The position numbers and the translations under genes were made by a program. The notes beneath the pieces are model-generated. The model searched no databases. It was not told the origin of the DNA and saw only the letters and a program-made list of their open reading frames with translations. Shown here in pieces: positions 16,537-19,631 of a DNA stretch of 21,428 nucleotides. Within the stretch, counting starts at the first letter, position 1. Each line of letters starts with the position of its first letter. This stretch comes from a virus: the IMG/VR virus record IMGVR_UViG_3300006921_000196, positions 1 through 21,428 of that record; one strand, written 5' to 3'.

Positions 16537-16763
16537 CACTTTCTCCTGTGCTTCTCCGCCACTACCAGTTCGTAGTGGCCCGTCGCAATCTTTCGATGAA
16601 ACAGCCATATCTCATCATGAAGCGCCATATTGACGTGCGTCTGTAAGAAGTCCTGGGTTCTCATGCCAAGTTTCTTTGCGGCTTTCGAGGACTCTGGCGT
16701 CAACGTCCAGCGCCCATGGCCGTATCGCGAGTTGCATTCACCAATAGTCTCGTATTTGGTCAT
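16536..16763 (-). CDS. Hypothetical 75-residue protein
   Basis: The ATG at 16763 overlaps the PAPS-reductase-like stop (ATGA), which makes it the likely start; the frame is open further upstream to 16784 but that would lie inside the neighbour. The product begins MTKYETIGECNSRYGHGRW and continues with a helical SSKAAKKLGMRTQDFLQTHVN and a basic end (VVAEKHRRK). No domain is recognised. It lies directly behind the PAPS-reductase-like gene, so it may be a partner, but this is only position. Confidence 0.75.
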   Translation of the reverse strand: MTKYETIGECNSRYGHGRWTLTPESSKAAKKLGMRTQDFLQTHVNMALHDEIWLFHRKIATGHYELVVAEKHRRK

Positions 16764-17620
16764 AAACCGCACATTCCTTCGCACTCGTTCTGCATCAAAT
16801 CTTTGAACAGTTCACCCTGGCCCAGTTCTTCAGCCGTGCTGAAGTCCACGTCGCGCAGTGGAATCCGTTGAGCGTGAAGGAACCGCGCTCCATGGAACCG
16901 TCCCTCTGCATCCCTGATCTTCTCATCGATCTGACAGGCTTCCTCAAACTCATCGGGAAACTCATCTTTGATCCGCCGCCACTCGTGATCGTTATGGAAC
17001 GGGCAACCAATGCACGCGCTCTTGGCCAACACCCTTTCCGGATACCTGTCACTAAACCACTGAAGGCAGTCCCTCCGGTTCATCTCCTTCTCAAGCAACG
17101 GCCATCGGTTCTCTACCCACGAATCCTGGCTGTCCTTCACCCGCATCATCTCGTCCTTGGATATGCCAATCCACATCTCCACGACAAAATCCTTCGGTGT
17201 GCGCTGTCGAGGCTTCAACCCGGCAAGCTCACGAACCCTCTTGCGTATGGGTTTGAGCTTATACTCACTGGTACACTGTCGTCGGGCCATGCCGTTCGTG
17301 CCGTCTTTGTTGATTAAAAAGAACGGTATCGACGCAAACTTGTGGCCCGTGGTGTTGAGGTCGGATTCCAGATCTTCCTTAATGTTGCCCCGCTGTACGC
17401 GGTACACGGGAAAGGATAGCTGGCCTTCGAGCCAATCCAGGTGGTCGTAAACCTCCTTGGGCTCCCAACCTGTGTCCGCAAATACAGCGCAGTCGGGCCT
17501 CGGACCAATGTCCCCAGCTTCAGCCATCAGCGCCATAACCGTGGATTGAACACCCGCGCCCAAGCTGATTACTCGGAGGTTGGCGTTTTCGACAGGATTG
17601 AACAGGTGGCTAATGGTCAT
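16760..17620 (-). CDS. PAPS-reductase-like (PP-loop ATP pyrophosphatase family) protein
   Basis: 286 residues from the ATG at 17620, six bases after AAGGG; a TTG at 17626 is an alternative. The N-terminus has a PP-loop variant SLGAGVQST (19-27) and the family's FADTGWEPKEVYDHLDWLE (48-66). Cysteines lie at 116 (RRQCTSEYKLKPI), 203 and 206 (ACIGCPFHNDHEW), and 280/284 (CEGMC at the very end), a set that could hold an iron-sulfur cluster. Phage members of this family are usually named cysH, but a role in sulfate assimilation is unlikely here. Lying directly after a cytosine methyltransferase (11-base overlap), it more probably acts in nucleic-acid modification, as DndC-type relatives do. That role is inference. 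Confidence 0.88.
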   Translation of the reverse strand: MTISHLFNPVENANLRVISLGAGVQSTVMALMAEAGDIGPRPDCAVFADTGWEPKEVYDHLDWLEGQLSFPVYRVQRGNIKEDLESDLNTTGHKFASIPFFLINKDGTNGMARRQCTSEYKLKPIRKRVRELAGLKPRQRTPKDFVVEMWIGISKDEMMRVKDSQDSWVENRWPLLEKEMNRRDCLQWFSDRYPERVLAKSACIGCPFHNDHEWRRIKDEFPDEFEEACQIDEKIRDAEGRFHGARFLHAQRIPLRDVDFSTAEELGQGELFKDLMQNECEGMCGL

Positions 17621-18572
17621 GTGCAACCCTTATTGCTTGTCCGATTTCTTGCGCGATCTGCGGGACGATGCTGTTTCCCAAGGCACGGAGTTGAGATACT
17701 CGGTTGGGTAGCCCATCAACCAGGCGACCCACTGCGGGTTCAAACTCCCACCACTCTTCGGGTCGGCCACCACTTGCCGCAAACCCTTCTGAACTATCCG
17801 TCCCGTTTCCTTGTCGTAAAACCTCTGATTGATGTGTGTCGGCGGATTCCCGTTCTTGTCCACCACCTTGATGTTCTTCCACCCCGGTTCTTGGGCGCTT
17901 GGAGTTGGATACAGACGAACCGCGTGACACAGCATCACCTGTTTGTCCTTGTCGATCCTGTTCTGGACGTTGTGCGTGTCGCTCTTGGCCTCCGTCGTCG
18001 TCGGGGTCGGCCACAAACTCAAAACCCAGTTGCCGCTGCCCCGCGTTACCATCGAAGGTGCCGTCTGGTTCGCTTTCGCTGTCGGCGTGTGCAACAACCC
18101 AGATTCGTTGTCTGAGGTGCGGGGCGCCAATCGAGCAAGCTGGAATATTAAACGTCCTTGTGGCGTAGCCTTCGCCTTCCAAGTCAGTGAGTACTTCGTC
18201 CAAGCCCAGTTTGATGAGCCCAACAACGTTTTCTCCAACAACCCAAGTGGGCCGGAGTTCCCGGATAACTCTAAGCATCTCTGGCCAGAGATGGCGGGGG
18301 TCGTCTTGAGCAAGCTGTCTTCCTGCCTGTGAGAACGGCTGGCAAGGGAATCCTCCGCAAACAAGGTCGGGTCGGGAGTCGGGGAAGTCGGGGAGTCGGG
18401 CATGTCTTACGTCATCCAGTATAGGCACATCGGGCCAGTGATGCCTCAACACCGCCTGGCAGAACGGATCCTGCTCCACGAAACAGGTGGTCCGGAAATG
18501 CCCGGTAGCCTCAAGGCCACGGGCAAATCCGCCTATTCCGGAGAACAGGTCAACTGTTGTCAGCTGGCTCAA
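17610..18572 (-). CDS. dcm: C5 cytosine DNA methyltransferase
   Basis: 320 residues with the C5-methyltransferase motifs: I DLFSGIGGF (8-16), IV GGFPCQPFS with catalytic Cys77 (73-81), VI ENV (114-116), VIII HLRQRIWVV (152-160) and X RALGNSIVPQIA (296-307). The enzyme should methylate cytosine in a short target and protect phage DNA from restriction. The target-recognition part (about 165-270) is unusually hydrophilic and low in complexity, rich in Asp, Glu, Gln, Gly and Ser (DPDDDGGQERHAQRPEQDRQ). The start is TTG at 18572, directly after TAA of the preceding micro-gene; no other start is available in frame. The same DNA carries a second 257-codon frame (17630-18403), which may explain the odd composition. 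A run of GTCGGG repeats codes for PDFPDSRPDL. Confidence 0.95.
   Translation of the reverse strand: MSQLTTVDLFSGIGGFARGLEATGHFRTTCFVEQDPFCQAVLRHHWPDVPILDDVRHARLPDFPDSRPDLVCGGFPCQPFSQAGRQLAQDDPRHLWPEMLRVIRELRPTWVVGENVVGLIKLGLDEVLTDLEGEGYATRTFNIPACSIGAPHLRQRIWVVAHADSESEPDGTFDGNAGQRQLGFEFVADPDDDGGQERHAQRPEQDRQGQTGDAVSRGSSVSNSKRPRTGVEEHQGGGQERESADTHQSEVLRQGNGTDSSEGFAASGGRPEEWWEFEPAVGRLVDGLPNRVSQLRALGNSIVPQIAQEIGQAIRVAHDH
17630..18403 (-). CDS. Overlapping +1-frame gene inside dcm: PTP-motif protein
   Basis: 257 codons from the ATG at 18403 lie wholly within the methyltransferase gene, shifted by one base. The product reads MPDSPTSPTPDPTLFAEDSL at the start, has SLTWKAKATPQGRLIFQLA (72-90), three PTP motifs (HTPTA 105-109, WPTPT 131-135, YPTPS 165-169) and ends with GGSLNPQWVAWLMGYP (218-233) and a basic tail. 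I recall these pieces (LTWK.KAT...FQLA, LLPTPTA, LNPxWVEWLMGFP) from phage and bacterial proteins annotated as DNA-methylase-related, so the frame seems to belong to a real family. No enzyme motif is visible. No ribosome site precedes the ATG, so translation could depend on coupling or another start. Function unknown; perhaps a methyltransferase partner. Confidence 0.55.
   Translation of the reverse strand: MPDSPTSPTPDPTLFAEDSLASRSHRQEDSLLKTTPAISGQRCLELSGNSGPLGLLEKTLLGSSNWAWTKYSLTWKAKATPQGRLIFQLARLAPRTSDNESGLLHTPTAKANQTAPSMVTRGSGNWVLSLWPTPTTTEAKSDTHNVQNRIDKDKQVMLCHAVRLYPTPSAQEPGWKNIKVVDKNGNPPTHINQRFYDKETGRIVQKGLRQVVADPKSGGSLNPQWVAWLMGYPTEYLNSVPWETASSRRSRKKSDKQ
18366..18400. repeat. Five GTCGGG repeats within dcm
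   Basis: On the + strand GTCGGG occurs at 18366, 18371, 18378, 18387 and 18395 with short spacers. It directly precedes the complement of the overlapping gene's ATG. The same unit builds the longer array at 20752-20932. It is coding on the - strand (Pro/Asp-rich in both frames). Confidence 0.75.
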
Positions 18573-18692: not shown

Positions 18693-18813
18693 CTTCAACC
18701 TCTCCTTCACAGTGGCACGTGGGGCAGTCGTCGTAGACTGCCCCCTTTCCATCGTCCCTCACGTCAACAGCGACGTAACCATTACCTCCACAGGTCTTGC
18801 AGATCATCTTCAT
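18646..18813 (-). CDS. 55-residue DnaJ-like zinc-finger protein
   Basis: An ATG at 18813, overlapping the previous stop as TGATG, opens 55 codons. The product begins MKMICKTCGGNGYVAVDVR and has DDCPTCHCEGEVEDG, giving two CxxC knuckles each followed by a Gly-containing turn (CKTCGGNG and CPTCHCEG), the pattern of the DnaJ Cys-rich zinc finger (CxxCxGxG). It should bind zinc. Stand-alone proteins of this type are common in phages and have no settled function. Its end overlaps the start of the 39-residue membrane protein in another frame. Confidence 0.75.
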   Translation of the reverse strand: MKMICKTCGGNGYVAVDVRDDGKGAVYDDCPTCHCEGEVEDGLMEAHQTQRELGE

Positions 18814-19631
18814 CAGTCAATCAGTCCTTTCACAATAACACCATTTCCATAATCACGAACGCCACCCAAGACGACTTCGCCACGCCCCGCATAGCCTATC
18901 GTCTTCCACGAGTAGTCAGCATTCGCCAAGAACACCGCCCGTGCAAACCCACGCGGGGTAGCACTGCGAATGTTCTTCGTCCTCGCAGACTTGCCACCCG
19001 TCAAACCATGAACGGGCGAGAAGTTGCGTCCCTTCTTCGGATCAGCTCGGTCATACGTCAGCGTCTTATGCGCCACCGCATTCTGGCGCGGCATATTGAA
19101 ACCGCCACCTGTCCAGAGACAAGTCTTCTTCCGATAACCGTCACGCGGGGGAATAACGTCAGGCCAACGCGGATGCACGTCGTCCTCCGGAAGATACCCG
19201 CCGTAGTCGCACGGATCAAACTTGTGATCCGGCTTGCGCCACAAACGCGGCAACGCACCAATGGGGTTCTCAATGTAGAACGGGCAACCCAACGCCTGAC
19301 CAACAAGCATACACCGCTGAACATGGGCAGCGGCCTTGTCTTGAAATAACGGGTCGGCCTCCGCCTTCTTGGACCACCACCGCGCACCTGACGCAGCAAG
19401 ATCTGTGCAAGGCGGGAAAGCGGACATGAAACACGCCCCCGTCCCGTGGCGACCGATGATCTCAAGAAGCGTGTCCGTATTGTAAAGGTCGGCGTGGACG
19501 TAGGTGATGTTGCCTTCCGTCCGCTCACCGTCATGCTGGATGTCGTAGGCGAAGCACTGATAACCAGCCTCGGCCCAAGGGCGCAAAGCCTCGCCCGTAT
19601 AATCGTAAAGGGAAATAACGTGGTTTCTCAT
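18813..19631 (-). CDS. C5-methyltransferase-like phage protein with PPC and ENP motifs
   Basis: 272 residues. The N-terminus HVISLYDYTGEALRPWAEAGY followed by AYDIQHDG reads as a Rossmann S-adenosylmethionine site (Asp30). It is followed by a motif IV-like MSAFPPCTDLAASGARWW with Cys75, and a motif VI-like FYIENPIG with Glu121. The usual PCQ and ENV of C5-cytosine methyltransferases are thus PPC and ENP. Further family-like parts are WRKPDHKFDPCDYGGYLPEDD and KKTCLWTGGGF. I recall many phage homologues annotated as DNA methyltransferase. It may methylate or hypermodify cytosine or another pyrimidine. AAGGAAG six bases before the ATG is a good ribosome site. It is the first gene of the - strand accessory operon, next to the iteron region. 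Confidence 0.9.
   Translation of the reverse strand: MRNHVISLYDYTGEALRPWAEAGYQCFAYDIQHDGERTEGNITYVHADLYNTDTLLEIIGRHGTGACFMSAFPPCTDLAASGARWWSKKAEADPLFQDKAAAHVQRCMLVGQALGCPFYIENPIGALPRLWRKPDHKFDPCDYGGYLPEDDVHPRWPDVIPPRDGYRKKTCLWTGGGFNMPRQNAVAHKTLTYDRADPKKGRNFSPVHGLTGGKSARTKNIRSATPRGFARAVFLANADYSWKTIGYAGRGEVVLGGVRDYGNGVIVKGLID

Follow-up and report, generated by a model that had tools for sequence, protein, structure and literature searches.

We propose that two genes nested in different reading frames of one viral locus encode the two subunits of a single C5-cytosine DNA methyltransferase, in which the outer protein (alpha, the dcm frame) catalyzes the reaction and the inner protein (beta, in the +1 frame) recognizes the target. 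We consider this interpretation highly probable. The locus lies in IMG/VR record IMGVR_UViG_3300006921_000196, and the window, as used here, is the whole 21,428-nucleotide stretch that was analyzed (Table 1). The two-subunit interpretation rests on inference where it says that the proteins are produced, bind each other and methylate DNA, that one recognition sequence is set by each module, and that the enzyme plays an anti-restriction role.

Table 1. Features of the nested alpha/beta locus in the window
Feature	Position	Strand	Remarks
Alpha ("dcm"), C5-cytosine methyltransferase catalytic subunit	17610..18572	(-)	320 aa, TTG start; motifs I-VIII and X, without motif IX
Alpha motif I (LFSGIGG)	18528..18548	(-)	
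Alpha motif IV with catalytic Cys (PCQPFS)	18330..18347	(-)	
Alpha motif VI (GENV)	18225..18236	(-)	
Alpha motif VIII (RQRIWVV)	18093..18113	(-)	
Alpha hydrophilic low-complexity spacer, beta modules read out of frame	17736..18092	(-)	Alpha dN/dS 0.58 vs beta 0.37
Alpha motif X (LRALGNSIVPQ)	17658..17690	(-)	HMM register with HhaI GNSVV
Beta, nested in alpha, +1 frame	17630..18403	(-)	257 aa, ATG start; proposed target-recognition and motif IX subunit
Beta translation-initiation region	18404..18418	(-)	TGGATGACGTAAGAC-ATG in the window; most relatives have AGGAGATATAAA-ATG at this position
Beta N-terminal domain, aa 1-104	18092..18403	(-)	Conserved SGQRC, W66, W75 and LTWKAKATPQGRLIFQL; overprinted on alpha motifs IV-VIII
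Putative beta recognition module "J" (WPTPTTTEAKSDTHNVQNRIDKDKQVMLCHAVRL)	17912..18013	(-)	From module clustering
Putative beta recognition module "A" (YPTPSAQEPGWKNIKVVDKNG...GLRQV)	17762..17911	(-)	Common to 10 other loci, at differing array positions
Beta motif IX (LNPQWVAWLMGYPTEYLN)	17690..17743	(-)	Invariant L-N-P and L-M-G columns

Geometry and motif content of the nested pair

The initial annotation had described a 257-codon +1 frame inside dcm, and its coordinates proved exact, on the minus strand. The motif overlays that it named between the two frames were correct to within about 1 base: beta HTPTA (18091-18077) overlies dcm AHAD (18092-18081), beta WPTPT (18013-17999) overlies dcm VADPD (18014-18000), and beta NPQWVAWLMGYP (17740-17705) overlies dcm AVGRLVDGLPNR (17735-17700). 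Its statement that the dcm frame has every C5-methyltransferase motif could not be upheld. The AdoMet-binding and catalytic motifs I, IV (PCQ), VI (ENV) and VIII are all present in alpha by the PF00145 criteria, and alpha matched phrog_363 (E = 4.7e-76) and Pfam DNA_methylase (E = 3.5e-39). The Pfam match covers residues 5-167 only, however, and against HhaI the alpha profile covers residues 7-173, with a weak further match at motif X. Alpha does not combine a recognition domain and motif IX with the catalytic motifs in one chain, although the alpha-beta pair as a whole does; motif IX is present in the +1 frame only.

Beta matched phrog_1008 (E = 3.3e-29). Its homologues share a layout of a conserved N-terminal domain, 1-6 xPTP modules and a C-terminal LNPxWVxWLMGYP, and in the window the motif IX sequence LNPQWVAWLMGYP likewise sits after an array of xPTP modules of about 40 residues. 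This motif was aligned to motif IX of conventional C5 methyltransferases by way of fused homologues. Two points go beyond the initial annotation: beta contains motif IX, the part that alpha lacks, and thereby makes the enzyme complete, and M.EcoHK31I is a precedent for such a division.

In the mechanism that we put forward, alpha would bind AdoMet and catalyze methylation through motifs I-VIII and X, and beta would be translated from an internal ATG in the +1 frame. Beta would supply a target-recognition array (modules of about 40 aa, each with an xPTP start; two here), followed by motif IX. The modules and motif IX would make up the greater part of the HhaI "small domain", and alpha and beta together would therefore rebuild a complete enzyme. 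Alpha would read the module DNA out of frame, as a hydrophilic spacer between motifs VIII and X. The enzyme would probably shield phage DNA from host restriction, with the modules determining the protected site or sites; this role is inferred from common phage biology.

The start of beta is marked in most homologues, where the start-region alignment placed TAGGAGATATAAA before the beta ATG; AGGAG was found no more than 16 nt upstream of this ATG in 48 of 86 loci. The window's own Shine-Dalgarno sequence for beta, GGATGA, is weak.

The beta profile, run against PDB chains with hmmsearch, gave no C5 methyltransferase match, only noise at E > 0.4. An AF2 model of beta alone, built with 68 homologues, reached a pLDDT of 60.6 and a pTM of 0.24 and contained a confident beta-hairpin at residues 72-92 (the N-terminal domain has a dN/dS of 0.39 in the beta frame). 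Foldseek found no significant match to this model. Such a poor model is as expected for an obligate partner, yet it lends no support.

Two neighboring genes were noted. A PAPS-reductase-like gene (phrog_424; 16760-17626, minus strand) lies directly downstream and overlaps the end of alpha by 17 nt, and a similar PAPS-reductase gene lies near the nested pair of Aeromonas phage AeroV_348 (L006). A second "DNA methyltransferase" PHROG match (phrog_757) occupies 18813-19631 on the minus strand; in its +1 frame lies an arginine-rich open stretch of 189 codons, probably a chance occurrence.

Conservation of the inner frame

The +1 ORF could in principle be a non-coding by-product, with the protein sequence and codon usage of dcm keeping the +1 frame open and forcing its motif words. 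Genes of the dcm type do leave this frame fairly open (the mean longest +1 ORF was 120 codons after synonymous shuffling), and WPTPTxS is simply VADTDS shifted by one frame. A +1 ORF at least as long as beta arose in 14 of 20,000 synonymous-codon shuffles of the window dcm, and an equally long one in 24 of 20,000 when codon usage was taken from the remaining genes of the window. For one locus alone, this is moderate evidence that the beta ORF exceeds chance and is suggestive only. Conventional phage C5 methyltransferases, however, carry 12-25 stops in the +1 frame, and together with the evidence on selection, modules and gene layout given below, this leads us to regard a non-coding origin as extremely improbable.

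A search with beta matched 93 phage records at below 60% identity, and 80 IMG/VR loci and 80 bacterial-genome loci were kept. The homologues in phages and bacterial genomes were about 28-45% identical, and the bacterial loci came from Bacillota, Pseudomonadota, Bacteroidota, Acidobacteriota, Chloroflexota and others. The nested pair ranges over Lactobacillales, Paenibacillus, Clostridia, enterobacterial phages and marine phages. Alpha overlies beta in the same +1 phase at all 80 beta-picked bacterial-genome loci and likewise at the IMG/VR loci. To avoid a choice based on beta, we assembled a second set from the 80 closest alpha relatives, which were fetched by alpha-frame patterns; a few of these overlap the earlier set. 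At every one of these alpha-selected loci (80/80), the +1 frame contained an ORF of 91-399 codons that matched the beta profile significantly, and the longest +2 open stretch was 26-117 codons. Words of the motif IX type occurred in the +1 frame only, and motif X (LGNxxV) occurred in alpha. Stops freely present in the +1 frame of relatives would have refuted the dual coding suggested by the initial annotation; they were not found, and a database search of the +1 frame returned homologues in phages and bacteria as well as the phrog_1008 match.

We also considered whether beta is an independent passenger that overprints the methylase gene, such as a homing endonuclease, an anti-restriction protein or a regulatory protein. 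Out-of-frame HNH genes are indeed present inside some actinophage methylases (PMC11855218). In contrast to this ShiLan-type insertion, no HNH domain was found in the inner frame: 68 beta proteins searched against Pfam and NCBIfam gave no match of any kind, HNH included. Moreover, beta ends in motif IX, which is missing from alpha, beta was seen only together with alpha, and beta sequence is fused in frame with alpha in actinophages. A passenger is therefore very unlikely in our judgment, and a Vsr, HNH or other passenger identity for beta was rejected for want of family support in Pfam and NCBIfam.

Selection in the two frames

Selection was estimated with a simplified OLGenie-type count over 27 homologues (137 pairs, 72-99.5% nucleotide identity), with bootstrapping over codon columns. 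In alpha 4-54, a non-overlapping control, dN/dS was 0.08 for alpha and 0.95 (0.54-1.66) for the +1 frame. Within the overlap, the values were 0.39 for beta and 0.18 for alpha over alpha motifs IV-VIII, 0.37 (0.30-0.47) for beta and 0.58 for alpha over the modules, and 0.29 (0.15-0.51) for beta and 0.83 for alpha over motif IX. Therefore, alpha is the more constrained frame over its catalytic motifs, whereas constraint on beta is the stronger over the modules and motif IX. An excess of synonymous-site constraint, the absence of which would have told against dual coding, was evident in dcm: alpha-synonymous differences fell from 0.66 outside the overlap to 0.30 over motifs IV-VIII, 0.36 over the modules and 0.11 over the motif IX stretch.

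These estimates carry several caveats. The method is home-made, the pairs are non-independent, a Jukes-Cantor correction was applied, and the middle of the alignment is approximate since the modules differ. Additionally, the stretch labeled "post-p1 stop" still lies within the beta tail and thus is not a control. On these estimates, beta is under purifying selection inside the overlap, and the confinement of +1-frame selection to the beta overlap argues against a non-coding by-product. Judged by comparative sequence evidence, beta is a real gene, that is, a conserved and selected coding sequence, and its expression is inferred. The matter is settled for us by the +1 frame that is open in 80 of 80 relatives, the frame-specific purifying selection and the homology across phages and bacteria, taken together.

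Proposed modular recognition array

Clustering identified 131 modules in 48 proteins, with a median length of 40 aa and a combinatorial order and number. Beta of the window has two modules, J-A, and close relatives with a scaffold that is about 91% identical have the arrays J-A (the window), J-A-L, J-L or J. Copies of the same module on unrelated scaffolds mostly share 60-85% identity in the beta frame, compared with mostly 20-50% for the same module DNA read in the alpha frame and 18-59% for the N-domain scaffold. The modules are gained, lost and shuffled between phages, which is the pattern that exchangeable target-recognition modules would show, and the binding of DNA by these modules is inferred. 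The conservation of the modules in beta and not in alpha is a further point against a non-coding by-product. The initial annotation had suggested that the hydrophilic "recognition" stretch of dcm would be the price of coding two proteins. Our data support this idea, since it is beta, not dcm, whose reading of the recognition modules is conserved.

Other layouts of the same parts

In natural REARRANGEMENTS, actinophages hold the same parts as single chains, tandem genes or other nested pairs. Single chains that combine motifs I-VIII, LLPTP modules, motif IX and motif X include Gordonia phage Leonard gp5, Mycobacterium phage Seagreen gp68 and IMG/VR loci; the loci with this layout are L253, L259, L261-L269, L277 and L279. 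In the tandem genes, the +1 ORF has both motif IX and motif X (Nyxis gp78/gp77; loci L256, L305-L308 and L313). In other nested pairs, the module array is in the +1 frame but motifs IX and X are in alpha (L270, L274, L299, L301 and L302). Whether beta-type proteins occur without an overlapping dcm had been raised as a check on dual coding, and beta-type sequence does exist outside full nesting, in the tandem and fused actinophage genes. In these forms the alpha frame is not read over the modules and motif IX, which a non-coding by-product would not explain. Of the two outcomes that the initial annotation had left open, a widespread dual-coding gene pair is supported by the open +1 frame, the selection on it and the occurrence of beta sequence outside full nesting, and a systematic artefact of dcm sequence constraints is rejected by the +1 selection in the overlap, the conservation of the modules in beta and the fused and tandem forms.

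Two modules remain in the +1 frame of Leonard ahead of the fusion point, and the single chain looks as if it was derived from a nested ancestor through indels. Motif IX is in the alpha frame in L054 and L163 (in L054 the modules are as well), and motifs IX and X are both in the beta frame in L143. Unless they are assembly errors, these three loci look like frame swaps or intermediate steps, not losses.

Several further arrangements were observed. In L253, L259 and L261-L268, an open +1 stretch (LFSAHSEPYSETLPTSGMTRNG...LPTPRATDGTKGG) lies over alpha residues ~120-260, upstream of the fused modules. Two Gordonia phage methylases (L265 and L267) contain an out-of-frame insertion that resembles the ShiLan HNH element (PMC11855218) and adjoins a beta-type relic frame. 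At L085, the catalytic core has been deleted in phase from both frames, and the modules and motif IX have been retained.

The compact single chain L279 was modeled with AF2 (pTM 0.78). Compared with M.HhaI, the model gave a Z score of 22-23 over ~255 residues at 3.3-3.8 A, spanning model residues 1-346, its whole length. In L279, LSARFVEWMMGLP aligns with conventional motif IX, and LLGNGVVPQQ aligns with motif X. The identification of motif IX relies on a forced global hhalign alignment and on the structure; the local hit spanned only motifs I-VIII. When beta tails were aligned with the fused proteins, LNPxWV was wrongly placed over motif VI, and single-chain sequences only were used instead. 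The L279 module (residues ~226-258) had a pLDDT below 50, and its DNA-reading fold is unresolved. As a whole, the fused relative models as a complete HhaI-like enzyme.

Relation to known methyltransferases and to current annotation

Lee, Kam and Shaw reportedly found in 1995 that the small subunit of M.EcoHK31I is encoded within the large one, in another frame. M.EaeI is a further two-polypeptide C5 methyltransferase of this kind and is likewise close to the alpha/beta pair. M.EcoHK31I has been described as a naturally split enzyme (PMC3439449). Its activity requires both of its polypeptides, of which the large one bears motifs I-VIII and X and the small one motif IX (PMC3404938, PMC3439449). 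The window pair is similar in that alpha has motifs I-VIII and X and a separate small polypeptide, nested in the alpha gene in another frame both here and in relatives, has motif IX. The pair differs from M.EcoHK31I in the start of beta, which lies further upstream (over alpha motif IV), and in the recognition array of beta, which is variable and shuffled.

This comparison raises the possibility that beta supplies motif IX only and that specificity resides in the variable region of alpha, as was published for M.EcoHK31I, where the predicted target-recognition domain (TRD) was assigned to the large subunit (PMC3404938). Nevertheless, the corresponding region of alpha is poorly constrained (dN/dS 0.58-0.83, compared with 0.29-0.37 for beta), it is in beta that the shuffled modules are conserved, and the fused and tandem forms keep the modules on the chain that bears motif IX. 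In L299, L301 and L302, moreover, beta has up to seven PTP modules without motif IX, making it an inner gene with the recognition array only. We therefore find a beta limited to motif IX unlikely. We favor a TRD in the small subunit, against the published placement in M.EcoHK31I, on evidence that comes from the relatives studied here and not from EcoHK31I itself.

M.AquI is a two-subunit C5 methyltransferase with the catalytic part and the recognition/IX part on separate chains, motif X in the small subunit and its genes in tandem. Actinophage relatives such as the mycobacteriophage locus L256 fit this scheme, but the window keeps motif X in alpha, and its genes are nested, not tandem. M.SPRI and M.phi3TI, from Bacillus SP-beta-type phages, are multispecific single-chain C5 methyltransferases with serial, exchangeable recognition modules of ~40 residues. 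The J-A array of the window would be similar in having serial, exchangeable modules of ~40 aa, with DNA binding again inferred; in contrast to these enzymes, the array is on a second polypeptide in the other reading frame.

In PHROGs, beta sits in phrog_1008 and phrog_31772, "DNA methyltransferase", and 68 of 68 beta proteins match phrog_1008. This label is misleading for beta because beta has no catalytic motif. The same nested pair is already in the public record as gp55/gp56 of Paenibacillus phage Shelly, where gp56 is marked "g55 internal gene", and as gp34/gp35 of Escherichia phage K1G, where both are annotated "DNA methyltransferase". The literature searched, with subscription papers mostly outside its coverage, yielded no description of what the inner gene does. 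What appears to be new is the breadth of the arrangement, the modular recognition array in a hidden frame and the interconverting architectures.

Implications

Long same-strand overlapping genes in bacteria and phages are rare and are often dismissed as annotation noise; here, the proposed function of beta follows from the enzyme motif that is missing in alpha. Automatic annotation usually calls the outer frame only, so that for many phage methylases the part proposed to confer specificity is not seen by Pfam or NCBIfam. Our analysis offers a testable answer on where such enzymes keep their sequence specificity and questions the placement of the TRD in M.EcoHK31I, and the nested pair is a natural system for following or swapping recognition modules. 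More broadly, we think it likely that phage and prophage C5 methyltransferases include a major, mostly unannotated class with DNA specificity in the second frame of the catalytic gene. In this class, the shuffled array would be selected in beta, alpha would tolerate the out-of-frame reading, and single indels would interconvert nested, tandem and fused forms, so that the overlap may act as an evolvable specificity cassette.
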